Assembly (NCBI GenBank): GCA_021781555.1
Contig: JAJXWQ010000004.1
Span: forward strand, 1 to 61,780
Source: a bacterium
Lineage (GTDB): Bacteria > Cyanobacteriota > Sericytochromatia > S15B-MN24 > VGJW01
Direction: 5' to 3'
Length of the DNA: 61,780 bases
Positions 2,398 to 38,339 of the stretch are shown here, in pieces; position 1 is the stretch's first letter, and the number at the start of each line of letters is the position of its first letter. The notes under the pieces are model-generated. The model worked only from the letters and a program-made list of their open reading frames with translations. It was not told the DNA's origin and did no database searches. The position numbers and the translations under genes were made by a program.

Positions 2398-3069
2398 TCA
2401 CCGGCCATAGAAGCGCAGCGCCAGGATGACCCCGCCGCGGATGGCTCCGGTACCGGGCTCGTCCGAGGCATAGATCGCCCCGCCGAGGTTGTCGACGATG
2501 CGCACCCTCAATCCGAGGGCGACCGCGGTTCGACTGACCGCTCCGGCGTCGACGTCGACGTCCGCCGCGGCGGTCAGGTTTCGCACCAGTGCCAGCTCGT
2601 ATCCGACGTCGATCTTGGGCAGCCAGGTACCGGTAATCGTCGCGCCCGGGCGGGGCGGAATCCAGTCCACGCGGGGGGCGATCCGGGGCGTGCCCCAGGG
2701 CGTGGGCAGCTGCAGCTCCGAGCCCAGTTCGAACAGGTTGCTGTCGAGGGCCGGATTGGGAGTCCACCCCGCGTTGAAGGCCAGCAGACCTGGCAGGAGC
2801 GCGTAGGCTGCGGACAGGAGCCGCCGTCCCTGGGCGGGGATCCCGAGGTCCAGTTCCAACCCGGGCAAGACGCCCGTACGGATGCCTGCGGGGGAAAGGT
2901 ACGAAGGGGTCGGAAAGTAGACCCCCGGGTTGGTGGGACCGCCATTGTAGGCAGCCCCGACCTCGACCTCCCAGATGCCTACCGGCAGGACGTCGGCCGT
3001 GCGGACTTCCTGAGTTGGCGAGAAGGTGTCGAGCGGCGGTCGACCGAGAGGGGAGATGAGATCGATCAC
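2398..3069 (-). CDS. Predicted surface/outer-membrane-like protein, unknown
   Basis: A 223-residue protein with alternating hydrophobic/polar strands, Gly/Pro turns and a C-terminal aromatic residue (Leu-Arg-Phe-Tyr-Gly-Arg), as in small beta-barrels. The repeated 'GxxVxV/DLG' strand pattern fits a transporter-like or YaiO-like barrel. No clear signal peptide is seen at the N-terminus, which counts against simple export. The start is GTG (3067-3069). No Shine-Dalgarno precedes it, but TAATCT ends 6 nt upstream, suggesting a leaderless transcript. It lies 23 bases before galK, so a sugar-related envelope role is possible but unproven. Confidence 0.6.
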   Translation of the reverse strand: MIDLISPLGRPPLDTFSPTQEVRTADVLPVGIWEVEVGAAYNGGPTNPGVYFPTPSYLSPAGIRTGVLPGLELDLGIPAQGRRLLSAAYALLPGLLAFNAGWTPNPALDSNLFELGSELQLPTPWGTPRIAPRVDWIPPRPGATITGTWLPKIDVGYELALVRNLTAAADVDVDAGAVSRTAVALGLRVRIVDNLGGAIYASDEPGTGAIRGGVILALRFYGR

Positions 3070-3075
3070 GAGAAG

Positions 3076-3081
3076 AGATTA
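3076..3081 (-). promoter_or_regulatory. -10 box placed for a leaderless start
   Basis: TAATCT on the minus strand, separated by exactly 6 nt from the GTG start at 3069; no Shine-Dalgarno between. Same geometry as moaA and the response-regulator gene. Confidence 0.4.
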
Positions 3082-10167: not shown

Positions 10168-11676
10168 TCAGCCGAGATGCCGGGTCGTTGCGCCTGCTGC
10201 CAGGGGGAGCCGCACGCTGACCCGGGTGCCTTTGCCCTCGGCACTGTCGAGCGTGATGGTCCCCTGGTGGGCCTGCACGATGGCCTTCACGATGGCGAGG
10301 CCCAGGCCCGAGCCGCCGACCTGGCGAGCGCGGGCCGCGTCCACCCGGTAGAAGCGATCGAAGATGTGCTCTTGGTGGGCCGCCGAGATGCCGCAACCAT
10401 CGTCCTCGATCAGCACCTGGGCCTGGCCGGAGCTCTCCGCGCTGATCACCTTGACCGAACCTTCCGCGGTGATCGCCTTGAGTGCGTTGTCCAGGAGATT
10501 GACAAAAACCCGCCGGATCGCATCTGGATCGCCGTCGACCCACAGCGGGGCCTGGGCCGGGACAACGCGTACCGACCGGTGCAGCACGGCGTATTCCTTG
10601 CCCACATCGAGCGCGAGTGCAGCGACGTCCAGCCGTTCGCGACGCGTCACCGGGGTCTCGGACCGCGCCATCAGCAAGAGGTCGTTGACCAGGCGGGTCA
10701 GCCGGTCGGTTTCCTTGAGAATGGTCTGGAGCGGCATCTCGAAGAGGGTGGGATCGGTCCGGCCCCGCTTGAGCAGGAGCTGGGCGTGGCCGGCGATGGC
10801 CGTGAGCGGCGTGCGGAGCTCGTGGCTGGCGTCGGCGATGAAGCGCTGCTGCGAGATGAAGGCCGCCTCGAGGCGGTCCAGGAGGCGATTGAAGGTGGCA
10901 GCCAGCTTGCCGATCTCGTCGTCGGCGAGGCCGGTGGTGTCGACCCGGCGCCGCAGATCCTTGGCCTCGATGTCGTTGACCTGCGCCGTGAGGCCCATGA
11001 TGGGGCGCAGGGTCCAGCTGGCCAGGTAGAAACCTGCCAGGCCTGCCATGAGCAGGCCGACGATCTCGGAGGCGACGTTGATGGCCAGTTGCTGGTCCAT
11101 CGTCCTCTCGATCGGCTTGAGCACGTCGGCGACCTGCACCTGGGCGATCGGAACGCCCGGGATGTCGAGATAGTGGCTCATCATCAGGAGATGGGGCTGG
11201 CCGGCGGTGTGCGGCAGGGAGAGCACGATGGTCGAGAAGCCGGCCCGGTTGGTGAACGGAAGCTGCAAGTAGCCGAGATTGGAGGACTTGGCCCACACCT
11301 TGCCGTCGGTGCCGACCAGCTGGATGTACATGCCGTTGGCGGCGATCGCATCGGGCAGGAGGACTTGCGGGCGCACGTCCATCGGCGTGTGCTCCTCGCG
11401 GGCCTGCTCGGCGAGGTCCGCGATGTAGTCGTGGATCTGCTGGACCTTGCTCCTGACCTCGTCGCGCTCGACCGCCATCAGGAGCGACCACAGGGCCTGG
11501 TGGCGGAGGACCGAGAGGAAGAGCAGGATGCCGCCCAGGAACGTCACGAAGAGCAGGATCATGCGCGCTCGGAAGGTCATGGGCCTGGCTCCGGGGGCCC
11601 GCATCAAAGGGCGCAGGAGCTCGACCATCGGCGGGCGCGTGGCGGCCGGCAGGTTCGAGTCGCCGCTGGCCTTCAC
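10168..11676 (-). CDS. Sensor histidine kinase
   Basis: 502 residues. The N-terminal helix at about 36-58, an extracytoplasmic loop of ~140 residues and a second helix at 200-221 form a sensor module. HAMP runs ~222-275. HisKA carries phospho-acceptor His285 in FIADASHELRTPL. HATPase_c has the N box (NLLDNALKA), the G1 box (EDDGCGI) and G2 (GGSGLGLAIVKAI). The start is GTG 11676, whose GTGA overlaps the response-regulator stop, so the two are coupled. The partner regulator and the GH57 gene lie upstream on the same strand, so the stimulus may relate to polysaccharide, but that is inference. Confidence 0.95.
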   Translation of the reverse strand: MKASGDSNLPAATRPPMVELLRPLMRAPGARPMTFRARMILLFVTFLGGILLFLSVLRHQALWSLLMAVERDEVRSKVQQIHDYIADLAEQAREEHTPMDVRPQVLLPDAIAANGMYIQLVGTDGKVWAKSSNLGYLQLPFTNRAGFSTIVLSLPHTAGQPHLLMMSHYLDIPGVPIAQVQVADVLKPIERTMDQQLAINVASEIVGLLMAGLAGFYLASWTLRPIMGLTAQVNDIEAKDLRRRVDTTGLADDEIGKLAATFNRLLDRLEAAFISQQRFIADASHELRTPLTAIAGHAQLLLKRGRTDPTLFEMPLQTILKETDRLTRLVNDLLLMARSETPVTRRERLDVAALALDVGKEYAVLHRSVRVVPAQAPLWVDGDPDAIRRVFVNLLDNALKAITAEGSVKVISAESSGQAQVLIEDDGCGISAAHQEHIFDRFYRVDAARARQVGGSGLGLAIVKAIVQAHQGTITLDSAEGKGTRVSVRLPLAAGATTRHLG

Positions 11677-12368
11677 GGGGATTCTTTGACGACGTATCCG
11701 ACCCCGCGGACGGTGTGGATCAGCTTGGGAAGCCCCTCGTCCTCGATCTTGTTACGCAGGTAACGGATGTAGACCTCGAGGATGTTGCTGTCGCCGCCGA
11801 AATCGTAGCCCCAGACGGCCTCGAGCAGGCGATCGCGGGTCATTACTTGCCTGGCGTTGCACACCAGGTGGTGCAGGAGATCGAATTCCTTGGGCGACAG
11901 GTCGATGGGCCGGTCCCCGCGCCGGACTTCCCGCGTGATGGCATCGAGCGTCAGGTCGCCGACCTGGTAGCCCTGCTTGGTGCTCGAGAGGTCGCGTAGC
12001 TGCACGCGCACGCGAGCCAGCAACTCGTCGAGGTCGAACGGCTTGGGCAGGTAATCGTTGGCACCGGCATCGAGTCCGGCCACCCGATCCCGGACGTCGC
12101 CCTTGGCCGTCAACATCAAGATGGGCGTCTCCGAGGTCTGGCGCAGCCGGCGGCAGACCTCCATCCCCTCCACGACCGGCAGCATGAGGTCGAGAATGAC
12201 CAGGTCGGGCGGTTGCTGGCGGGCGGCGATGAGGCCCTTCATCCCGTCGTGGGCGACCTCGACCTGATACCCCTCATAGGTCAGCTCGATCTGGATGAAC
12301 TTGGCGATCTCCTCGTCATCCTCGATGACCAGGATGCGTGCTGGATTGCCAGGCCGATCAGGGATCAT
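11673..12368 (-). CDS. OmpR/PhoB-family response regulator
   Basis: 231 residues. The receiver domain has the acidic pair EDD near 16-18, phospho-acceptor Asp60 (DLVILDLMLP) and the conserved Lys in LTAKGD. The C-terminal winged helix (LTLDAITREVRRG to IRYLRNKIE...VRGVGYVV) binds DNA. It overlaps the kinase start by 4 bases. Its ATG at 12368 lies 3 bases from the GH57 stop codon, and TATAAT, encoded by the last GH57 codons, ends 6 nt before this ATG. The gene may therefore have its own leaderless internal promoter. Confidence 0.96.
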   Translation of the reverse strand: MIPDRPGNPARILVIEDDEEIAKFIQIELTYEGYQVEVAHDGMKGLIAARQQPPDLVILDLMLPVVEGMEVCRRLRQTSETPILMLTAKGDVRDRVAGLDAGANDYLPKPFDLDELLARVRVQLRDLSSTKQGYQVGDLTLDAITREVRRGDRPIDLSPKEFDLLHHLVCNARQVMTRDRLLEAVWGYDFGGDSNILEVYIRYLRNKIEDEGLPKLIHTVRGVGYVVKESP

Positions 12369-12371
12369 GCC

Positions 12372-15173
12372 TCAATTATACGGGGAGATCCAGGGGAGGA
12401 TCGGATCGTCCTCCGTGGCGGGCGGCAAGGATTCGTCCAGAAGATCGGCGAACGCGCTCGGGCCCGCCTGGCTCGTGTGGGCGCCTGGCCACCGCGAGAT
12501 CTCGAGATGAGCTCCCGGTGGCAGCGAGCCCACCAGGAACTTCCAGCTCCGCGGATCGCCGGGGAGCTGGCGCTTGGACACGGCGCAGGCCACGGTTCTC
12601 GCGATCGGGTCGATCTCGACGCGAGCTGGCGCGATATCGGCGCCGTTCGGCAGGAACAACCCGGCGCTTCCTGCGTCGAGCACGACGGCTGCGGTCCACG
12701 GGGACGCCGAGCGGGCGTGGCGGCCCGGCAGGAGCGGTGCGGGAGCCGCCACCGCCTCCGCTGAAACGCTCGCGGGCCGGGTCCAGAGGTAGGCGTCGAG
12801 GATCGGCAGCGGCGGGGGGGCCCCGTAGGCCAGGGGACGTGCCATGTGCTCCAGCTTGAAGACGAACGCCCAGTCAGGACCGTCGTTCTCGACCGAAAAT
12901 CCCGTCAGGGCGTCATCGGGCGGCTTGCCTTCGGGGTGGTCCGCGAGCCTGATCACCGCCCGGCTGGCCAGCGGAGGCACGGTGGCGTGGAGCGGAGCAG
13001 AGAGCAGGGGACTCGCGCCCAGATCCAGGGGCTCGATCGTGACGTCCTCGCCCCCGTGCACCTCGAGATCCAGCCAGGGGATCGCCACCTCGACGCGAGC
13101 GGGCCCCCAGGCCGTCCGGATCGGACGCTCGGTGGGGGGATCGGCGAAGACCAGGAGGTGGCTCGGGCGGACCGGCTTCAGATCCAGGAGGTACTGCACG
13201 GGGAAGGGCACGCCGGCACGCGGAAGGCCGCCCGGCCGTCTCGAGATCCCGATCGCGAATGACACCGGGCCGGGCCGCCTGGAAAAATCCACGGCCAAAT
13301 AGAGGAAGTGGCCATCGTTTCCGGCCTGGATCGCCTTGACCCCGGTAGCCGCCTGCACGTCGCTGGCTGCGGGCCTGACCGTGAGGGCGCCTTGCCAGGC
13401 GTTGCCCCCCGCGCCGTCGAGCGGGGGCGAGATCTTCCCGCGGGCCCGCAGCGGAGGGGTCCCGAGCGGCCTGCAGAGGTACTCGGGCGGTAGGAGACCG
13501 AGCGTCCGGTACGCAGCGGAAAGGTAGGCGCGGAACATCGCGTCGAACCGGCTGGCTTGGCTGGCCGGCGCGTTCGAGCCCTCCCACCAGAACCAGTCGC
13601 TGCCTTCGGCCTTGAGCAACAACGTCGTGGCGCGGGCGCTGTCGGGCGAATCCGGCACCTGCCGCTCGTGCTCCTCCAGGGCGGTTCGAGCTGCCTGGAG
13701 GGCCGCCCAGGCACGGTTCTTGTCGGGCTGACCGATCCACGAGGCGAAGGTCCCGTCGACCCAGGCTCCCGGCCAGATCGGTCGGGGCAGCGGTTGCACC
13801 AGCGCCCGCGACAGGACCGTGGTGGCAAGCGGGAGCACGTTCGCCCCCCGCTTGCGAGTTTCCGGGAGCAGGCCCAGCGCCTCGCCAGGGGTGACGGTCT
13901 CGAGCTCGGGATCGTGATCGAGCCGGGTGTACAGGCTGTCGAGAAAGGCTTCGCCGTTGTCCGGGTAGGCTGACCACGGATTCTGGCCATCGAGAACGAT
14001 GGCCAGGAGGCGCGGCCGCGAGCGATCGACCGCGGCCGCGATGGCATCGAGGCGATGGACCAGATCCCGCGCCGCCGCGGGGCCCTTCCAGGATGGGTAC
14101 TCGAAACCGATGCGGTCGGAGAGGCCGTGATCCCGGAAGAGCACGAAGGGTCCCTGGCCCGCGCGCCAGAAGTCCGTCAGGAGGTCTGGCCGCACCAGCT
14201 TGCCGCCCTGCCTGAGCCCGACTCCGAGGGTCCGCGCCAGGATGCTCTCGTCGGTGGCAATCCAGCGGATCTTGGCGGCGCGGAGCAGAGGCATCACCGC
14301 CGGCGAGACTCCGCCCTCGGGGGGCCACATCCCTGCCGGGCTCCAGCCGAGCCAGTGCCGGTAGATCGCCACCCCGCGGGCGATCTGGATGCGAGCGTCC
14401 GCGACCCGGCGAAAGGCGGGGTGGGGCATCACGCTGTTCGGCTGCGAGACCTCGGCGATATCGCTGTCGACGAGCAGCGGCAGGATCGGATGAGCGTAAG
14501 GGGTCGTGGCGATCTCGATCTGACCGCTTTTCGCGAGCCTGGCGAACTCGGGGAGGACCTTGGCCAGCAGGGCGCGCTGCACCATGAGGACGCTCCGCTT
14601 GTCGGCCTCGGTGAATCCCCGACCCTTCTTGAAGAGGGCGGCCATCCCCGGCTGACGTCGGGCCGACGGGGACAGCCAGACCAGGTTGGCCAGCACCTGG
14701 AGGTCGCGCCAGTCGGCCGTCGTGTAGTCTTCTTCAGGCTTGGCCTGGAGCTCCCGGTAGCGCGGCAGGGCCGCGGTCATCGCGGGGGTGGCCGTGAAAA
14801 ACGTCCGGTGGATCTCCCGCTTCTGGGCCGGGGAGAGGAGGATGGCCGCGATGCTCGAAAGCTCCAAGGCGCGGTCCGTGGCACCCTGGTCATAGGCCTC
14901 GAGCTGCCAGATCAGCGAAGGGGTGAAGTCGAAGGTCACGTGGACGCGATGCCGCGCCACGAGCTGGGCCATCTCGAGGTAGTCCTTCACGGCGTGCAGG
15001 CGGACCCAGGGCTCCTGGTACACGTCGCTGTGGCCCCTCTTGGGGAAGAAAGGCTGGTGCAGGTGCCAGACGATCGCCACCTCGAGGGGGTAGCGCGGCG
15101 GGGCGGCGGCGCCGGTGAGTAGCACCAAGGCCAAGGCGCCGACCAGAGCGAGCGGGCGCATGCGAATCGGCAT
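12372..15173 (-). CDS. Secreted glycoside hydrolase family 57 protein
   Basis: 933 residues. A signal peptide (1-24) leads into a GH57 fold opening with WHLHQP (36-41), one of the family's defining motifs. Later come PPEGGVSP and IRWIATDESIL, which match the family's catalytic-barrel motifs, and a C-terminal beta-rich part resembling DOMON/glucodextranase-type binding modules. GH57 enzymes act on alpha-glucans (amylase, branching, amylopullulanase); the exact substrate is unknown. ATG 15173 is preceded by TAGGAT, usable either as a weak Shine-Dalgarno or as a -10 for leaderless transcription. It heads an operon with the two-component system; its last codons, TAT AAT TGA, form a -10 box. Confidence 0.85.
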   Translation of the reverse strand: MPIRMRPLALVGALALVLLTGAAAPPRYPLEVAIVWHLHQPFFPKRGHSDVYQEPWVRLHAVKDYLEMAQLVARHRVHVTFDFTPSLIWQLEAYDQGATDRALELSSIAAILLSPAQKREIHRTFFTATPAMTAALPRYRELQAKPEEDYTTADWRDLQVLANLVWLSPSARRQPGMAALFKKGRGFTEADKRSVLMVQRALLAKVLPEFARLAKSGQIEIATTPYAHPILPLLVDSDIAEVSQPNSVMPHPAFRRVADARIQIARGVAIYRHWLGWSPAGMWPPEGGVSPAVMPLLRAAKIRWIATDESILARTLGVGLRQGGKLVRPDLLTDFWRAGQGPFVLFRDHGLSDRIGFEYPSWKGPAAARDLVHRLDAIAAAVDRSRPRLLAIVLDGQNPWSAYPDNGEAFLDSLYTRLDHDPELETVTPGEALGLLPETRKRGANVLPLATTVLSRALVQPLPRPIWPGAWVDGTFASWIGQPDKNRAWAALQAARTALEEHERQVPDSPDSARATTLLLKAEGSDWFWWEGSNAPASQASRFDAMFRAYLSAAYRTLGLLPPEYLCRPLGTPPLRARGKISPPLDGAGGNAWQGALTVRPAASDVQAATGVKAIQAGNDGHFLYLAVDFSRRPGPVSFAIGISRRPGGLPRAGVPFPVQYLLDLKPVRPSHLLVFADPPTERPIRTAWGPARVEVAIPWLDLEVHGGEDVTIEPLDLGASPLLSAPLHATVPPLASRAVIRLADHPEGKPPDDALTGFSVENDGPDWAFVFKLEHMARPLAYGAPPPLPILDAYLWTRPASVSAEAVAAPAPLLPGRHARSASPWTAAVVLDAGSAGLFLPNGADIAPARVEIDPIARTVACAVSKRQLPGDPRSWKFLVGSLPPGAHLEISRWPGAHTSQAGPSAFADLLDESLPPATEDDPILPWISPYN
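12375..12380 (-). promoter_or_regulatory. Internal -10 box inside the end of the GH57 gene
   Basis: TATAAT on the minus strand encoded by the final Tyr-Asn codons of GH57; 6 nt later is the ATG of the response regulator. It has almost the same sequence as the moaA start region (CCGTATAAT, then GA, then CATG). Confidence 0.5.
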
Positions 15174-15207
15174 GCCCGATCCTACCCCGCCAGCGCGGCG
15201 GCTGACT

Positions 15208-15660
15208 TCAGCGCGGCGGTTCGACCGTCTCGAGGGGTGGCTCCAGTAGCTCGCTTGCCGACGCGCCCTCGGCCAGCTGGTGCCCGTCCCGCCGGAGCTC
15301 CTGGAAGCGATCCCAGGCGGCCCTGGTCCCGGCCTTGAAAGCCTCGAGATGGATGCGGGCCGGCCGGACGATCCCTTCGTTCACGAAGTTGCCCGCCTCG
15401 ACGACCGAATGTACGGTGATCTGCGCTTCGTCGAGGGTTGCATCGAGCTTGCCGAGCTTGCCGCGCAGGTCATCCGTGATGTCGTTGACCTCGTCCATTG
15501 TCTGGCGTACCTGGGTGAGCAGGTCCTCGACGCGCGGCAGCACCTCGGTCTTGAATGCGCCCAGGAGCGTCACCCCTTGCCACAGGGCAAGGGCCACCAC
15601 CCCACCCACGACCGCCACCACCACGGCGGCGACGACGTAAAGGGCGTTGAGCGCAGTCAA
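15208..15660 (-). CDS. DUF948-like membrane-anchored coiled-coil protein
   Basis: 150 residues. One N-terminal transmembrane helix (about 6-28) is followed by a long amphipathic helix with a VRQTMDEVNDITDDLRGKL pattern, as in DUF948/YtxG-type general-stress envelope proteins, then a variable Arg/Glu-rich tail. Function unknown; probably a cytoplasm-facing coiled coil at the membrane. The start is TTG at 15660 with a strong GGGAGGAGGGGAG upstream. It stands alone, 34 bases from GH57, on the same strand. Confidence 0.7.
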   Translation of the reverse strand: MTALNALYVVAAVVVAVVGGVVALALWQGVTLLGAFKTEVLPRVEDLLTQVRQTMDEVNDITDDLRGKLGKLDATLDEAQITVHSVVEAGNFVNEGIVRPARIHLEAFKAGTRAAWDRFQELRRDGHQLAEGASASELLEPPLETVEPPR

Positions 15661-15733
15661 GGCTCCCCTCCTCCCGGCTGATTCTTGCTTGATATACCCT
15701 TTGCAGCGGCGGCGGGTCGCTCACTCCACCTCA

Positions 15734-15837
15734 CTATACCTTTTCCGGCTGGTACGGGCCCGCCTGCGCGGTCGCTGCGCCGCGTAACCGGGCCCCGGTT
15801 GGCCGCTCGGATCCGATCCGAACCGGGTAAAACCGCC
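15734..15837 (-). repeat. CTAG repeat copy 6 (diverged)
   Basis: Diverged reverse-oriented copy between the divergent DUF948-like and moaA genes. It starts at CTAT (15734-15737) and keeps CCTTTT, the GGGCCC arms and GCGCA, but the far end no longer shows CTAG. It is the only copy in a promoter-containing divergent gap. Confidence 0.75.
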
Positions 15838-15854
15838 CGGATCGCCGTGCCAAA

Positions 15855-15889
15855 CGGTCATGACCGGGATTTGACCGTATAATCGACCC
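15855..15889 (+). promoter_or_regulatory. moaA leaderless promoter with palindromic operator
   Basis: TATAAT (15878-15883) ends 6 nt before the moaA ATG at 15890, so transcription should start at or next to the A of ATG. At the -35 position lies a perfect 12-bp palindrome CGGTCATGACCG (15855-15866), and a further TGACCG half-site repeats at 15872-15877. No -35 consensus is present, suggesting activator or repressor control. Confidence 0.65.
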
Positions 15890-16867
15890 ATGCGCGACGG
15901 CCTCGGCAGGCAGATCGACTACTTGCGCGTCTCGGTTACCGACCGCTGCAATTTTCGGTGTCAGTATTGCATGCCCGCGCGCGGGAAGATCTGGTTCCCC
16001 CGGGAAGAAATCCTGTCGTTCGAGGAGATTCACACCCTCGTGCGGGATGTCTTCATCCCCCTGGGCTTGACGCGGATCCGCCTGACCGGCGGCGAGCCGC
16101 TCCTGCGCCAGGGGCTGGCGACCCTCGTCACGCTCCTGCGCGGCGAACCAGCCCTCGAGGATCTTGCGCTTTCCACCAACGGCGTGCTTCTCGAAGCCCA
16201 GGCCGGCGGCCTTGCGGCGGCCGGTATCGATCGGGTGAACATCAGCCTGGACACGCTGGAGGGCGAGCGCTTCCGCAGGATCACCCGGGGCGGCAACCTG
16301 GAGATCGTCTTGCGGGGCGTGAGGGCGGCACTGGAAGCCGGCATGCACCCGGTCAAGATCAACTGCGTGGTGGTGCCTGGCCTCAACCTGGAGGATGTCA
16401 TAGAGCTCGCCCGGCTCACGATCGAGCTGCCGGTTCACGTCCGATTCATCGAGTTCATGCCCGTGGGGGACCGGGAGCTCTTCGAGGCGAGGGGCACGGT
16501 CACGATCTCGGATGTCGCCGGCCGGCTGCGGGAGCGCTTCGAGCTCGTGCCGGTCGCGGCCCCCCCCGCCGGGAACGGGCCGGCCGACCATCTGGCGATC
16601 CGCGACGCCATGGGTACCCTTGGCTTCATCCACCCCATGAGCCGTCACTTTTGCGATGCGTGCAACCGCCTCCGGTTGACGGCGAATGGCCACATCAAGG
16701 CCTGCCTGCTGACCTCCGGCGAGCTCGACCTCAAGACTCCCCTGCGTCAGGGCGCCTCCGCGGACGAGCTGCGGCAGCTGGTCCAGAGCGCCGTCGCCAT
16801 CAAGCCGGACTGGCACCACATGGGCGATCGGGTCCAGGCTTTGACGATGAGCCAGGTCGGGGGCTAG
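15890..16867 (+). CDS. moaA: GTP 3',8-cyclase MoaA (molybdenum cofactor synthesis)
   Basis: 325-residue radical-SAM enzyme for the first step of molybdopterin synthesis. The N-terminal cluster is Cys20, Cys24 and Cys27 (CNFRCQYC), and RLTGGEPLLR follows. The second Fe-S cluster is Cys255, Cys258 and Cys272 in FCDACNRLRLTANG. The C-terminal Gly-Gly tail needed for MoaA activity is present. No Shine-Dalgarno precedes the ATG; instead TATAAT ends 6 nt upstream. The TAG stop codon coincides with the left boundary CTAG of a repeat. The other moa/moe genes are not in the window. Confidence 0.97.
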   Translation: MRDGLGRQIDYLRVSVTDRCNFRCQYCMPARGKIWFPREEILSFEEIHTLVRDVFIPLGLTRIRLTGGEPLLRQGLATLVTLLRGEPALEDLALSTNGVLLEAQAGGLAAAGIDRVNISLDTLEGERFRRITRGGNLEIVLRGVRAALEAGMHPVKINCVVVPGLNLEDVIELARLTIELPVHVRFIEFMPVGDRELFEARGTVTISDVAGRLRERFELVPVAAPPAGNGPADHLAIRDAMGTLGFIHPMSRHFCDACNRLRLTANGHIKACLLTSGELDLKTPLRQGASADELRQLVQSAVAIKPDWHHMGDRVQALTMSQVGG

Positions 16868-16971
16868 GGGGCTCCCGGCTTGAAAGGACCGGGTTCGAGG
16901 AGTCAAACGGGGCCCGGTTGCGCAGGGCAGCGATCGCGCAGAGGGCCCCGTTCAAACTGCAAAAGGTCTAG
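16864..16971 (+). repeat. CTAG repeat copy 7, starting on the moaA stop codon
   Basis: Complete 108-base copy, CTAG (16864-16867) to CTAG (16968-16971). The moaA stop TAG is 16865-16867. The outer stem pairs perfectly; the loop region carries substitutions (AGGGCAGCGATC) relative to other copies. It shares its right CTAG with copy 8. Confidence 0.95.
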
Positions 16972-17075
16972 GGGGCTCCCGGCTTGAAAGGATCGAGCCC
17001 GATGAGTCAAACGGGGCCCGGTTGCGCAGCGAAGCGACCGCGCAGAGCGACCCGTTCGAATTGCCAAAGTTCTAG
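16968..17075 (+). repeat. CTAG repeat copy 8, ending on the cyclase-regulator stop codon
   Basis: Complete 108-base copy in tandem with copy 7 (period 104). Its right CTAG (17072-17075) contains the TAG stop of the minus-strand cyclase gene. The tandem pair therefore fills the gap between the two convergent stop codons exactly. Confidence 0.95.
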
Positions 17076-20000
17076 CTCGAGGCGTCTTCGAGCGCGGCTT
17101 GCAGTCCGCGGGCCCGCTCGAGGTCGAGCACCGCGCCGATCCGCGCGAAGGCGGCCGTGGCTTCCAGCAGCGCGGCCCGGGCATCCGCGAGCTTGTCCTG
17201 GCGACCCAGGAGATCTGCCGAGATGAGCAGCGCCCTGGCCACCTCGAGCTTGCTGCCGAGACCGGTAAGAACCGCCGCGGCCTGATCGAGGGTCGCCCGG
17301 GCCTCTTGCAGGCGCCATTGCTCGCCCAGCCAGGCGGCCAGATGCCGCAAGATGATGCCCTTTTGCAGCCGATCGCCCATCTGATCGGCAAGCTCCAGAC
17401 CGCGCTCGAGGTGCGCGAGTCCCTCTTCCTGCCGCCCGCTGGCCAGGAGGATGCGCCCGAGGATCTGGTGCGCCTCGGGTTGCACCTCGAGCGCCTCGAT
17501 CCGTTCGAGAACGGCCAGGCCATCCTCGAGCTGGGCCAGTGCCTCCTCGGTCCGGGACAATGCGGCCAGCGCGTTGCCGATCCCGATCTGGGACACGCCC
17601 CACATGAACGTGTTGCCCGTGCGCTCGGCAAGGTCCCGGGTCTTTTCCAGGTGGAGCAGCGCCTCGTCGATCTGGCCCATGTCGAGCTCGAGAGAGCCCA
17701 GGTTGAGCTGCAGCGTGATGAGCTTGGCCACGTCGCCGAGCCGCTCGTAGAGCGCCAGCCCGCGGTGGTAGTGGTCCAGTGCGGCCGGCCAGTCGCCGCG
17801 CTGGTAGTGAACGAGGCCGAGGTTCTGGAGGGCATCCGCGATGCCCATGAGATCCGGTCCCTGTGTCCTGAGCTCCAGGGCCCGGCCGTGGTGATCGAGC
17901 GCCAGATCCCACTCGTTGCGGCGGTAATGGCATACGCCCAGAGTGCCATGCGCCCTGGCGAGATCGACGCCCGACGCGGCGGGCGACTTCGTGATGCGCT
18001 CGAGGGCCTGCCGGGCGAGCGCGAGGGCGGCGTCGTAGTTCCCGATGCGCATCTCGATCCAGGCGGTCTCCAGGAGCAGGCGGGGGACCACGTCGGGGGC
18101 ACGGCTGGCCAGCTCGGCGATGGCCTGCTCGAGGTGCAAGAGGGCGTCCTGGTAGGCCCCCTGGCGATCGAGGGTACGGGCGACCAGGGCATGGAGCTCG
18201 GCGGTCTGGCGCGGATCGAGATCGTCGCGGAGGGCTTCTCGGGCGTGGGCCAGGGCCGGGATGTACTCGCCCAGCAGGGCCTCGACCTCGGCCAGCCCGG
18301 ACAGGATCTCGGCTCGCCCGACTCCGGAGCTGCCGGCCGGGGCAAACGCCAGGGCCTGCTCGAAGGCACGCCGGGCGTCCGCGTTGGCGTAGGCCGCCAG
18401 GGCACGGCGTCCAGCCCGGTGCAGATACTCGGCCGCCTTGGCCGCCTCGCCGGCCCGGCTGAAGTGGTAGGCCAGGACCTCGGCAGCGTCTCGGCGCCGA
18501 TCGCCGAGTAACCGTTCCAGCGCCTCGCCGGCCTTGCGATGCAGATCCTTGCGGGCGGAGAGCAGGAGGGACTCGTAGGCGACCTCCTGGATGATCGCCT
18601 GGTTGAACGCCAGCTCTCCGTTTTCGCGGCAGTGCAGGAAGTCCCGGGCCACGAGTTCGGACGTCAGCGCCACGACGTCTCCGGGGACCAGCTCGGCCAG
18701 CAGGTCGAGGCTGAAGTTGCGCCCGACGACCGACGCCACCTGGATGAGGGTGCGCAGGCCGTGCGGCAGGGCGTCGAGCCGGGCGGAGACGACGCCCTTG
18801 ATCGAAGTCGGAAGATCCGCGTCGTCGGGTTGCCGCGTCACCTCCCAGTGGGTCGGCGTGCGGCGGAGCAGCTTGCTGTCGATCAGCCCCTTGACCAGTT
18901 CCCAGAGAAAGAGCGGATTGCCCTCGCTGCGGCCGAGCACGTGATCGGCCAGGCGAGCGATCTCGTCGGGCCAGAGCGTGGGCGATGCCGGCAATCCGAG
19001 GGCGACAGCCAGCAGGGCCCGCTGATCGCCGGGTGGCAGCGGACCCAGCACGATCTGGGTCAGGTCGACCTTGCCGGCCCACTCGGCCGTCCCCTGGTCA
19101 TTGCGGGGGCGAGCCTGGTAGAGGATCAGCACGGGCAGCGGCTCGTGCTGGTCCGCCAGGCGATCGATGAAGGCGTTGAGCCACTCGAGGGAGCCGAGAT
19201 CGGCCCAGTGCAGGTCGTCGATCGACATGACCAGCGGCTGGTGCCGGGCATCTGCGACCAGCAGGTCGGCCAGGGCGGAAAACCCGGCATCGCGGCGCTG
19301 GCGGGCCGTTCCCTCCGAAGCCGCGTGCTCGCCGGCGATCCCAAGGAGACCGGCGATCAGCTCGGCGGCGGCGGCAGCGTCCGGATAGCCGGCCGCCATG
19401 GCCCTGGCGTGCAAGGCTGCCTGAATGCGCTCTGCGTCGACCGTGCCGCCGAGGTCGAGCCACTCCTGTACGAGCGCCGAGACCATGTGGAGGGCGTGCT
19501 GGCGACCGTAAGAGGGACACCGCACGCGGAGAATCCGGCCCTCTCCCCGCCGGCGGATCCGATCGAGAAATTCCCTGGCCAGCCGGCTCTTGCCGATGCC
19601 CGCTTCTCCTACCAGGCCCACGACCTGAACGATGCCGCCGCGCAGGTTGTCCAGGCAGGCCAGCAGGCGGGTCAGCTCGCTCCTGCGGCCGACCATCGGA
19701 GCGCGCTCGCGAAACTCGCCGCGGGGGATCGGACGCACGCTGACGGGCCGGTAGGCGGGGACCGGCGCGGGCAGCCCTTTCAAGGTCAAGGTGCCGACCA
19801 GCTCGTACTCGAAGCGTTCCTTGGTCACCTTGTACGTGGCCTCGCCGACGTACACCATCCCGGGCGGCGCGGCGGTCTCGAGGCGCTGCGCCAGGTTGAC
19901 GGCATCGCCCATGACCGTGTAATCCCGCTTGGCGCCGCTGCCCACGGCCCCGGCCACGACCAGGCCCGTGTTGATGCCGACACGGACCGCCAGGCGGATG

Positions 20001-20470
20001 CCTGTTCGGGTCTCGAGCTGGGCCGCGAATTCTCGGGCGGCGCTCTGCATCTCGAGGCCCGCCCGCACGGCGCGTTCGGGATCGTCCTCGTGGGCGATCG
20101 GCGCACCGAACAACGCCATGAGCGCGTCGCCCATGTACTTGTCGACGACGCCGCCACAGCGGTACACGGGCTCGCTCAGGGCCGCGAAGAAGGCGTTCAG
20201 GATCTCGGTGACGCGTTCGGGATCGAGCCGGCTCGAGAGCGCGGTGAAACCCTCGACATCGGCGAAGAGCACCGTCACGACGCGGCGATCCGAGGCCGGT
20301 AGATCGAGGTGCGCCGCGCCGGTCAAGCGAGCCCCGCACGACAGGCAATAGGCCCGGTGCTCGGCCACGCTGGCCAGGCATTCCGGACACGATTCTTGCA
20401 CCCGCTTGCCGCATGTGCCGCAAAAGCGTGCCGTCGGAGGCAAGACGGCCTGGCACTCGCTGCAGGTCAT
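17072..20470 (-). CDS. Zinc-ribbon / class III nucleotide cyclase / AAA ATPase / TPR regulator
   Basis: 1132 residues in four blocks. Two zinc ribbons (1-48) have CxxC pairs at 3/6, 17/20, 28/31 and 42/45. A class III cyclase (~62-235) has metal-binding Asp71 and Asp115, Lys111, and transition-state residues Asn192 and Arg196 in GDAVNLAQRLE, so it looks active. An AAA-type ATPase has Walker A GLVGEAGIGKS (285-295) and a DDLHWAD Walker B. About a dozen TPR-like helical repeats run to the C-terminus. This is the architecture of large cyclase-ATPase signalling proteins; the ligand and whether cAMP or cGMP is made are unknown. ATG 20470 has no Shine-Dalgarno, but TATAAT ends 7 nt upstream. Its stop lies on a repeat boundary. 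Confidence 0.92.
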   Translation of the reverse strand: MTCSECQAVLPPTARFCGTCGKRVQESCPECLASVAEHRAYCLSCGARLTGAAHLDLPASDRRVVTVLFADVEGFTALSSRLDPERVTEILNAFFAALSEPVYRCGGVVDKYMGDALMALFGAPIAHEDDPERAVRAGLEMQSAAREFAAQLETRTGIRLAVRVGINTGLVVAGAVGSGAKRDYTVMGDAVNLAQRLETAAPPGMVYVGEATYKVTKERFEYELVGTLTLKGLPAPVPAYRPVSVRPIPRGEFRERAPMVGRRSELTRLLACLDNLRGGIVQVVGLVGEAGIGKSRLAREFLDRIRRRGEGRILRVRCPSYGRQHALHMVSALVQEWLDLGGTVDAERIQAALHARAMAAGYPDAAAAAELIAGLLGIAGEHAASEGTARQRRDAGFSALADLLVADARHQPLVMSIDDLHWADLGSLEWLNAFIDRLADQHEPLPVLILYQARPRNDQGTAEWAGKVDLTQIVLGPLPPGDQRALLAVALGLPASPTLWPDEIARLADHVLGRSEGNPLFLWELVKGLIDSKLLRRTPTHWEVTRQPDDADLPTSIKGVVSARLDALPHGLRTLIQVASVVGRNFSLDLLAELVPGDVVALTSELVARDFLHCRENGELAFNQAIIQEVAYESLLLSARKDLHRKAGEALERLLGDRRRDAAEVLAYHFSRAGEAAKAAEYLHRAGRRALAAYANADARRAFEQALAFAPAGSSGVGRAEILSGLAEVEALLGEYIPALAHAREALRDDLDPRQTAELHALVARTLDRQGAYQDALLHLEQAIAELASRAPDVVPRLLLETAWIEMRIGNYDAALALARQALERITKSPAASGVDLARAHGTLGVCHYRRNEWDLALDHHGRALELRTQGPDLMGIADALQNLGLVHYQRGDWPAALDHYHRGLALYERLGDVAKLITLQLNLGSLELDMGQIDEALLHLEKTRDLAERTGNTFMWGVSQIGIGNALAALSRTEEALAQLEDGLAVLERIEALEVQPEAHQILGRILLASGRQEEGLAHLERGLELADQMGDRLQKGIILRHLAAWLGEQWRLQEARATLDQAAAVLTGLGSKLEVARALLISADLLGRQDKLADARAALLEATAAFARIGAVLDLERARGLQAALEDASS

Positions 20471-20477
20471 GCGGCCG

Positions 20478-20483
20478 ATTATA
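20478..20483 (-). promoter_or_regulatory. -10 box for leaderless cyclase-regulator transcript
   Basis: Perfect TATAAT on the minus strand, 7 nt before ATG 20470, with no Shine-Dalgarno in between. Confidence 0.5.
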
Positions 20484-20604: not shown

Positions 20605-21402
20605 TTAGCGGCTGGCCTCTGCCAGCTGGACCATGCGGCGGACCCTGGCGACATCGACGCAACCGTCGTCGCCGTGCAATGCCGTCGCCACGATCGCCGC
20701 GTCGGCGAGGCCCGCGAAGTCGCCGAGGGTTTGCTCGCTCAACCCCGAGCCCACGACGAGCGGAGCGTCCGGGAGCGCCCGGCGGACCCGGCGAAAGTCC
20801 TCGGGGTCGGCGGCTTTACCGGTTCCGGAGCCCGACAAGATGAGGGCCGATGCGCCCCCTCGCTCGAAGGCGTCGGTGGCCTGATCCTCGAGCCGCTGGG
20901 CGCCGAGCGGAGCCGCATGCTTGACCATGACGTCGCCCCAGACGGTGATGCTCGTGCCGAGCATTCGGCGGTCGAGCGCCAGATCCCAGGCCTGGCCTTC
21001 GAGGAGCCCCTGGTCGGTCACCATGGCGCTGACCAGGACGTTGACCCGGATGAACGCGGCGCCGACCGCCACGGCGATCGCCAGCGCCGCGCGAGCATCG
21101 TTGCGCAGCACGTTGATGCCAAGTGGGAGTCCGCCGAAGCGTTCCTTGACCGCCAGGGCGATGACCGTGAGGGCAGCCACCGTCGCCGGCGGAGCGGCGC
21201 CCGGGGAGAAGGGGCGATCGCCGAAGTTCTCGATGATGAGGGCCTGCATTCCCCCGTCGGCATAGGCCGCGGCGTCGAAGAGGGCCCGGTCCCTCACCGC
21301 CGCCAGATCGCCGGCCCACTCGGGAGAGCCCGGCAAGGCCAGCAGGTGCAAGACGCCCACCAGGGCGAGTCCGCGGGGCGAGCGAGGATCAAAGGTCGAC
21401 AT
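20605..21402 (-). CDS. BtpA/SgcQ family TIM-barrel protein
   Basis: 265 residues. It has the family opening VGVLHLLALPGSP, the GGMQALIIENFGD segment, PLGINVLRNDA, and the C-terminal VVGSGLSEQTL phosphate-binding loop of an indole-glycerol-phosphate-synthase-like barrel. In cyanobacteria BtpA stabilises photosystem I; elsewhere (SgcQ) the family occurs without photosynthesis and its reaction is unknown. Nothing photosynthetic is nearby. The gene sits 62 bases after ricT on the same strand and may be cotranscribed with holB-ricT. Confidence 0.85.
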   Translation of the reverse strand: MSTFDPRSPRGLALVGVLHLLALPGSPEWAGDLAAVRDRALFDAAAYADGGMQALIIENFGDRPFSPGAAPPATVAALTVIALAVKERFGGLPLGINVLRNDARAALAIAVAVGAAFIRVNVLVSAMVTDQGLLEGQAWDLALDRRMLGTSITVWGDVMVKHAAPLGAQRLEDQATDAFERGGASALILSGSGTGKAADPEDFRRVRRALPDAPLVVGSGLSEQTLGDFAGLADAAIVATALHGDDGCVDVARVRRMVQLAEASR

Positions 21403-34576: not shown

Positions 34577-34649
34577 GCCCCCTTCGTCTAGAGGCCCAGG
34601 ACACCGCCCTCTCACGGCGGCAGCAGGGGTTCGAATCCCCTAGGGGGTA
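34577..34649 (+). tRNA. tRNA-Glu (anticodon CTC)
   Basis: Folds into a full cloverleaf: acceptor GCCCCCT/AGGGGGT (with a G-U at the first pair), anticodon stem CCGCC/GGCGG with loop CTCTCAC (anticodon CTC, reading GAG), and T stem AGGGG/CCCCT with TTCGAAT. CCA is not encoded. The stop codon of the minus-strand gene abuts its 3' end. Confidence 0.97.
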
Positions 34650-35357
34650 CTACGGCTCGCTAGCCTGGTCAGGATCCAGGCAGCGAGCCATTTTGCTTCG
34701 GTTCGAGGCACCCGCGGCCGTCTTGTTGCTGGCCGCCACCACCGGTCGGTCGTGCTCGGGCACCGGCCAGTGATCGTGGACGCTCGAGCAGAAGGTGATC
34801 TGCTCGTCGGGCAGCGCGTTCCAGGTCAGGGTCCGATTGGCGGCCGGAAACACCCCCCTTCCGACCCGCGGGCCCTTGCTGTGGCTGGGCAACGGGGGGG
34901 GCTGGAGCAGGTTCTGGGGATCCGGGGAGTGAGAGAGGTAGGTCTCGACCTGGACTCCGCCGGGGATCGGATGGCCCTGGCGATCCCGGATCGACACGTC
35001 GTACATCCCCATGCCCCTGTCCACGTCGGGGACCGCGAAGCCGATGTGAGCCGTCTGACCGGGCTTGAGCATGGCGTAGCTCGATTCCTGATCGCCCGAT
35101 TCGAGCCACTGCGACAGCAGCTCCCGGCCGAGCCGCTTGGCATTGACCGGTCCCCGCGCACCGACCTGATGGCCGTGCTTGCCAAGGTAGAGGTATTCGG
35201 TCTTCTGGCTGGTGTTGGTCACCGCAAAGCCCGCGTAGGCGGGCGATCCCGTTGCGTTGTGGTGGCTCCAGAAGACGCGGAACTTGCCGGTGGTGTCGAC
35301 CTGCTGCGACTGAGCCAGGACGCCCTGCGAATGCACCGTCTCGGGGGCATTGCTCAT
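34650..35357 (-). CDS. Unknown protein, stop codon abutting tRNA-Glu
   Basis: 235 residues, no family recognised and no signal peptide or membrane segment. The first ~150 residues look like a beta-sandwich (FRVFWSHHNATG, YAGFAVTNTSQKTEYLYLG, HIGFAVPDVDRGMGMYDVSI), as in secreted copper- or carbohydrate-binding folds; a Pro-rich stretch follows. The ATG at 35357 overlaps the stop of the small upstream gene (ATGA), so the pair is cotranscribed and translationally coupled. The frame ends with TAG immediately at the tRNA 3' end. Confidence 0.6.
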   Translation of the reverse strand: MSNAPETVHSQGVLAQSQQVDTTGKFRVFWSHHNATGSPAYAGFAVTNTSQKTEYLYLGKHGHQVGARGPVNAKRLGRELLSQWLESGDQESSYAMLKPGQTAHIGFAVPDVDRGMGMYDVSIRDRQGHPIPGGVQVETYLSHSPDPQNLLQPPPLPSHSKGPRVGRGVFPAANRTLTWNALPDEQITFCSSVHDHWPVPEHDRPVVAASNKTAAGASNRSKMARCLDPDQASEP

Positions 35358-37874: not shown

Positions 37875-38303
37875 TTAGGATCCCGCGCGGCTGAGCCAGT
37901 CCACCATGGTCTGGCTGTCGACGAGGCCCGGCTGCTGGAAGACCGTCTTGCCATCCCGGAGCACGACGAAGTTGGGGATGCCCTGGACCCCGAATCGCGC
38001 CGCCAGTTGCGGATGGCGTTCGGTGTCCACCTTGACGACCAGGGCGCGGCCCGCCATCTCGGCCGCCGTCTTGGCCACCTGCGGCGCCGCCATCCGGCAG
38101 GGGGCGCACCAGGCGGCCCAGAAGTCCACCAGGACCGGGACCCGGGCTTGGGTGGCGATCGCATCGAAGGTGGACTCGTCGACCTCGAGCGGTTCGCTGG
38201 TCGGCCCCAGCGTGGCCTTGCAGGATCCGCAGCGACCCGAATCCGCCAGGTGGCTTTCGGGGATGCGGTTGGATTTTCCACACGAAGGGCATTTTCGGAT
38301 CAT
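37875..38303 (-). CDS. trxC: Zinc-ribbon thioredoxin (thioredoxin 2 type)
   Basis: 142 residues. N-terminal zinc ribbon CPSCGK (5-10) and CGSC (25-28) as in TrxC, then a thioredoxin fold with active site WCAPC near 65-69 and the cis-Pro segment IPNFVVL. It reduces disulfides in the cytosol, often under oxidative stress. ATG 38303 has no Shine-Dalgarno; TAGACT ends 6 nt before it, with TTGCCC 18 bases further up, predicting a leaderless mRNA. Confidence 0.95.
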   Translation of the reverse strand: MIRKCPSCGKSNRIPESHLADSGRCGSCKATLGPTSEPLEVDESTFDAIATQARVPVLVDFWAAWCAPCRMAAPQVAKTAAEMAGRALVVKVDTERHPQLAARFGVQGIPNFVVLRDGKTVFQQPGLVDSQTMVDWLSRAGS

Positions 38304-38309
38304 GGCCCG

Positions 38310-38339
38310 AGTCTAGCTTGACCTCCGCCTGCTGGGCAA
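38310..38339 (-). promoter_or_regulatory. Leaderless promoter of trxC
   Basis: Minus strand TTGCCC (38334-38339), 18-base spacer, TAGACT (38310-38315), then 6 nt to ATG 38303. Confidence 0.45.

Follow-up and report, generated by a model that had tools for sequence, protein, structure and literature searches.

TAnnnT boxes beside start codons predict a minority of leaderless genes in a non-photosynthetic lineage of Cyanobacteriota

Introduction

Zheng et al. 2011 (PMC3160421) placed the leaderless share of genes at 35.9-46.1% for Deinococcus-Thermus and at about 20% for Actinobacteria; four Chloroflexi had 4.0-5.7%. Cyanobacteria were absent from the leaderless groups of that study, and many of them use neither Shine-Dalgarno (SD) sites nor leaderless starts (PMC3160421). 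Experiments in D. radiodurans showed that an ORF-adjacent TANNNT box drives leaderless transcripts (Zhong et al. 2025, PMC12340547). Synechococcus elongatus UTEX 2973 has 19 gene starts that were classed as leaderless (PMC6091082).

In this study, a 61,780-nt stretch of DNA (the window) was analysed together with its own genome and related genomes. The initial annotation had reported a leaderless-start signature in the window and likened it to Deinococcus-type genomes. The likeness to Deinococcus did not hold: the lineage is Cyanobacteriota, and the signature covers about 4-6% of genes, against 35.9-46.1% in Deinococcus-Thermus (PMC3160421). Of 21 genomes related to the window genome at phylum level only, 10 carried PsaA/PsaB; in the control set, only Synechococcus elongatus did. 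The phylum was thus identified as Cyanobacteriota. None of the 18 genomes of the window's own class had a PsaA/PsaB match, and by exclusion this class is probably Sericytochromatia. The assembly gave no 16S rRNA match, and named MoaA relatives reached at most 50% identity, too little to identify the organism.

Results

Candidate leaderless genes in the window

TATAAT had been placed upstream of moaA, a response regulator and a cyclase regulator, at distances of 6, 6 and 7 nt from the ATG, and these positions proved exact. The geometry claimed for trxC (TAGACT) and for the gene starting at 3069 (TAATCT) was also present, with 6 nt in each. The first three genes had been described as lacking SD sites, and no usable SD was found ahead of any of the five starts; GAGG lies one base before the ATG of the response regulator, a spacing too short for an SD. 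A sixth case, beyond those first listed, was a glycosyl hydrolase family 57 (GH57) gene with TAGGAT 5 nt before its ATG. The features are as follows.

15878-15883, plus strand: TATAAT, putative -10 box of moaA, then 6 nt (CGACCC) and ATG at 15890; read from the sequence
15890-16867, plus strand: moaA, 325 aa, predicted leaderless; Radical_SAM and Mob_synth_C domains (Pfam), frame check
12375-12380, minus strand: TATAAT of the response regulator, then 6 nt (TGAGGC) and ATG at 12368; read from the sequence
11673-12368, minus strand: response regulator with receiver and Trans_reg_C domains, which leads a regulator-histidine kinase pair
10168-11676: histidine kinase, overlapping the response regulator by 4 nt
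20478-20483, minus strand: TATAAT of the cyclase regulator, then 7 nt (CGGCCGC) and ATG at 20470; read from the sequence
17072-20470, minus strand: zinc ribbon/guanylate cyclase/AAA/TPR protein (the cyclase regulator), 1132 aa, predicted leaderless; Pfam
15179-15184, minus strand: TAGGAT, box of the GH57 gene, then 5 nt and ATG at 15173
12372-15173, minus strand: GH57 gene, 933 aa, predicted leaderless; Pfam
38310-38315, minus strand: TAGACT, box of trxC, then 6 nt and ATG at 38303
37875-38303, minus strand: trxC-type thioredoxin with an N-terminal zinc ribbon (Zn_ribbon_Thio2, residues 5-30), predicted leaderless; Pfam
3076-3081, minus strand: TAATCT, box of the gene at 2398-3069, then 6 nt and GTG at 3069; the weakest example

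The protein encoded at 2398-3069 had no Pfam match. For moaA, the response regulator, the cyclase regulator, trxC and the gene at 2398-3069, no alternative ATG, GTG or TTG was found back to the nearest in-frame stop, and these five start codons are firm. In moaA, an in-frame TGA lies at 15872, and ATG 15890 is the sole possible start downstream of it. The zinc ribbon begins at residue 3 of the cyclase regulator, which fixes its start, and at residue 5 of trxC. TATAAT occurs 42 times in 2.05 Mb on both strands. The window holds four copies, and three of them precede a gene start by 6-7 nt, against an estimated chance expectation of about 0.004 (4 sites × 2 positions × 1,794 starts/4.1 Mb of strands). 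Because the hexamer is so rare genome-wide, this arrangement is far beyond chance, and coincidence was ruled out.

Other observations were made around these genes. The cyclase regulator belongs to a large paralogous family: this genome has 13 matches and genome G002 has 54. A BtpA-family gene (PF03437; the family takes its name from a photosystem I biogenesis protein) adjoins it at 20605-21402, in a genome that has no photosystem I. The sole Rfam match in the window was a tRNA-Glu (CTC) at 34577-34650.

Of the three TATAAT cases, that of the response regulator is the least secure, and it is ambiguous. Its box doubles as the Tyr-Asn codons at the end of the GH57 gene, the bases reading TAT AAT TGA, then GGC and ATG. 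Only 3 nt separate the two genes, and TATAAT may here be nothing but the end of the GH57 coding sequence; the regulator would then be read from the GH57 mRNA through translational coupling over the gap. We regard this as a serious possibility. The odds nevertheless lean modestly towards an internal promoter for the regulator-kinase pair: a pair placed behind a glycosidase would benefit from a promoter of its own, and tightly internal genes elsewhere show the same geometry above expectation (7 against 0.6). The box and its spacing are also kept in the congener (TATAAT-N6-ATG at the same place, G001:C128:1833-1847), but the box is GH57 coding sequence, so this conservation is confounded by coding constraint.

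Genome-wide position of the box

The analysis covered 2.05 of the 3.82 Mb of the window's own genome. Gene starts came from a simple in-house codon-model caller, not a standard one, which gave 1,794 genes. The initial annotation had called for a genome-wide count of TAnnnT positions relative to starts. This check was run, and the positions were non-random, with a peak at spacers 6 and 7. In a count made without gene calls, TA..AT-N6-ATG occurred 50 times and TA..AT-N7-ATG 36 times, and the other spacings had a mean of about 15 (2-26). In the called genes, TA...T ahead of ATG starts reached 45 occurrences at -12 and 22 at -13, with 0-8 per position from -24 to -16. TAnnnT at spacer 6 or 7 was present in 84 of 1743 genes, whereas control pairs of spacings gave 9-19 genes. 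A start-agnostic count put the surplus at spacers 5-8 at about 100 genes (5.6%). The predicted leaderless share in this genome is thus about 4-6% of genes. No functional enrichment was seen among the predicted leaderless genes, whose Pfam families were scattered.

An error in start calling could in principle mimic such a peak. When TAA or TAG stands in frame just before the first possible ATG, TA hexamers would appear at multiples of three, and the boxes of trxC and of the gene at 2398-3069 do start with an in-frame TAG or TAA. However, the peak also appears in the count made without gene calls, which largely refutes the artefact. Spacer 7 is out of frame, TATAAT at spacer 6 holds no in-frame stop, and little or no peak was seen at -9 (4) and -15 (12) against 45 at -12. 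We consider this explanation to have a negligible probability.

A separate spike, seen at TA...T-N13-ATG and, for TTG starts, at N9, was false; it came from a dispersed palindromic repeat of about 104 bp and left spacers 6-7 unaffected. This repeat (TAGAGTGCTCCCGGTTTGAATGGATCGAGCCCGATGAGTCAAACGGGGCCCGGTTGCGCA...) lies in the window at 1102 (+), 10121 (-), 37762 (+) and 49470 (-), behind or between genes. About 100 copies are present in the 2.05 Mb, sometimes in tandem with a 104-bp period. It is a REP/BIME-like family, and its core GTTTGAATGGATCG was absent from the examined loci of other genomes.

SD-like motifs were seen ahead of 42.7% of starts, compared with 12.6% for a control stretch. 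Among the boxed genes, 8 of 84 had such a motif, compared with 736 of 1659 others (P=1.6e-11); put the other way, SD was absent in 76 of 84 boxed genes and in 56% of the remaining genes. Two initiation modes had been suggested to coexist. The TAnnnT peak in SD-depleted genes and the common SD elsewhere point the same way, and the two modes do seem to coexist. The leaderless-start reading is thereby supported as a prediction.

Promoter character of the box

Boxes were enriched at the first genes of transcription units. Divergent genes had 43 boxes against 7 expected, an excess of 7.2%. Co-directional genes separated from the preceding gene by 100 nt or more showed an excess of 2.4%. Tightly internal genes (gap of 10 nt or less) had 7 boxes against 0.6 expected, an excess of 1.9%. 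The boxes favour A at the fourth and fifth positions, and G at -2 of the box, in the extended -10 style, was found in 53 of 76 against 113 of 223 (P=0.005). Enrichment of a -35 element was not seen among the boxes (9/76 versus 25/197). A preference for ATG among boxed genes was not significant (59/76 versus 1126/1667, P=0.08).

The box might instead be a translational element, either an A/U-rich patch that holds the start accessible or a binding site for ribosomal protein S1. Nakagawa and co-workers noted that the upstream AT bias of non-SD genes admits either reading (PMC5397173). A TAnnnT consensus at a fixed distance, with G at -2, nevertheless resembles a -10, and divergent genes show about four times the excess of tightly internal ones. 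A translational role without promoter function is therefore very unlikely.

We infer from the sequence the promoter function of the box, the site of transcription start and the mode of ribosome engagement. With a 6-nt spacer and the usual sigma-70 distance from -10 to +1, transcription would start at the A of AUG. The predicted promoters would be of the housekeeping (sigma-70/SigA) type, with a -10 hexamer TAnnnT, best TATAAT, ending 5-7 nt before the start codon. Transcription would begin at the A of AUG or one to two nt away, since the -10 ends so close to the start codon, and the mRNA would carry no leader or almost none. The ribosome would then take up the message through its 5'-terminal start codon and not through SD pairing. 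This would be a minority mode, used by about 4-6% of genes, chiefly the first in a transcription unit, alongside ordinary SD-led initiation. We put the probability at about 85% that -10-adjacent housekeeping promoters give mRNAs with no leader or almost none in this way.

A variant with very short leaders keeps the box as the -10 and moves the transcription start to a few nt before the AUG or to a position inside the first codon, so that the mRNA would be near-leaderless. The spacers do range from 5 to 8 nt, and the choice of transcription start on a given -10 is known to be flexible. The peak, however, is sharp at spacer 6 and then 7, and spacers 8-10 are hardly raised. We consider short leaders improbable as the general explanation, and the start at or beside the AUG is preferred.

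Conservation of the boxes

A congener with 86% protein identity keeps the moaA arrangement CCGTATAAT-N6-ATG, as does another genus of the family at 63%, where the upstream DNA outside the box could not be aligned. In other families of the order, moaA had TAGGAT-N6-ATG (G005), TACAAT-N8-ATG (G008) or a plain SD (G006, G007 and G009). With a -10-adjacent box in some families and an SD in others, the gene seems to switch between initiation modes. For the GH57 gene, GCGGGGTAGGATCGGGC-ATG, that is, the 17 nt ahead of the ATG with the box included, was identical in the congener, whereas 20 of 50 positions were identical 21-70 nt upstream. The TATAAT of the cyclase regulator, with its 7-nt spacing, is also present in the congener. 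The flank there is largely conserved too, so the conservation of this box says little.

Distribution in the phylum

The reach of the signature was measured by whole-genome counts of TANNAT-N6-ATG against the phase-matched spacings 9 and 18. In the window's own order the ratio was 1.95, with a spacer-6 excess in 9 of 10 genomes (z 2.0-10.2); G004, a 64% complete genome of the same family, showed no such excess. The rest of the class had a ratio of 1.14, and another family of the class had an excess in all five genomes (z 2.4-4.3). In the small genomes without photosystem I, the ratio was 1.28 and the excess was present in 11 of 11 (z 3.5-6.1). We infer that these eleven are probably Vampirovibrionia. 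The ten genomes with photosystem I had a ratio of 1.06, with a clear excess in just one of them. This one, G024 (ratio 1.70, z 5.4), may be a photosynthetic cyanobacterium with many leaderless genes.

With the out-of-phase spacing 14 as control, clear signals were limited to the order, to family f5 of the class and to G024. Spacing 14 is out of codon phase, so the reading that the signal is confined to the window's own order was withdrawn; measured against the phase-matched spacings 9 and 18, genomes beyond the order also have an excess, though a weaker one. A control with the reversed pattern was judged unsuitable.

One sequence, TATAATCGAGCCATG, was found with its spacer in five genomes of the order from three families (G000:C169:38103-38117, G001:C19:5969-5983, G005:C193:8365-8379, G007:C44:14051-14065 and G008:C480:1669-1683). 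These sites are perhaps one orthologous leaderless gene.

Discussion

The signature is secure for the order of the window genome and suggestive in other non-photosynthetic members of the phylum. That leaderless initiation is general in the non-photosynthetic classes of Cyanobacteriota, and was lost or nearly so in most photosynthetic members, is a tentative idea and rather doubtful at present. If this class-level pattern is true, leaderless initiation in the ancestor of the phylum and its loss toward photosynthetic cyanobacteria become testable.

The work extends predicted -10-adjacent leaderless genes to an uncultured, non-photosynthetic sister group of oxygenic cyanobacteria; translation start in Cyanobacteria had previously been described as largely unexplained (PMC3160421). 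The geometry of -10 and ATG is also of use in annotation, where it pins true start codons in these metagenome-assembled genomes. Among the matches listed in a literature search, no description was found of leaderless genes with Sericytochromatia, Melainabacteria or Vampirovibrionia.

The mechanism is already known in other bacteria, and this lineage is a new place for it. Deinococcus-Thermus is similar in having TAnnnT a few nt before the start without SD, beside a GGAG-type ribosome-binding class (PMC12340547; PMC3160421). It differs in phylum and in extent: the share predicted here from sequence is about a tenth of that in Deinococcus-Thermus. Actinobacteria (Streptomyces and Mycobacterium) share high GC, a TAnnnT with a loose middle and use in a minority of genes (PMC3160421, PMC3898074), but the proportion there is about 20% and the lineage is unrelated. 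Synechococcus elongatus UTEX 2973 belongs to the same phylum and likewise has few leaderless transcripts (PMC6091082), although leaderless genes are apparently rarer in photosynthetic Cyanobacteria than in the genome studied here.
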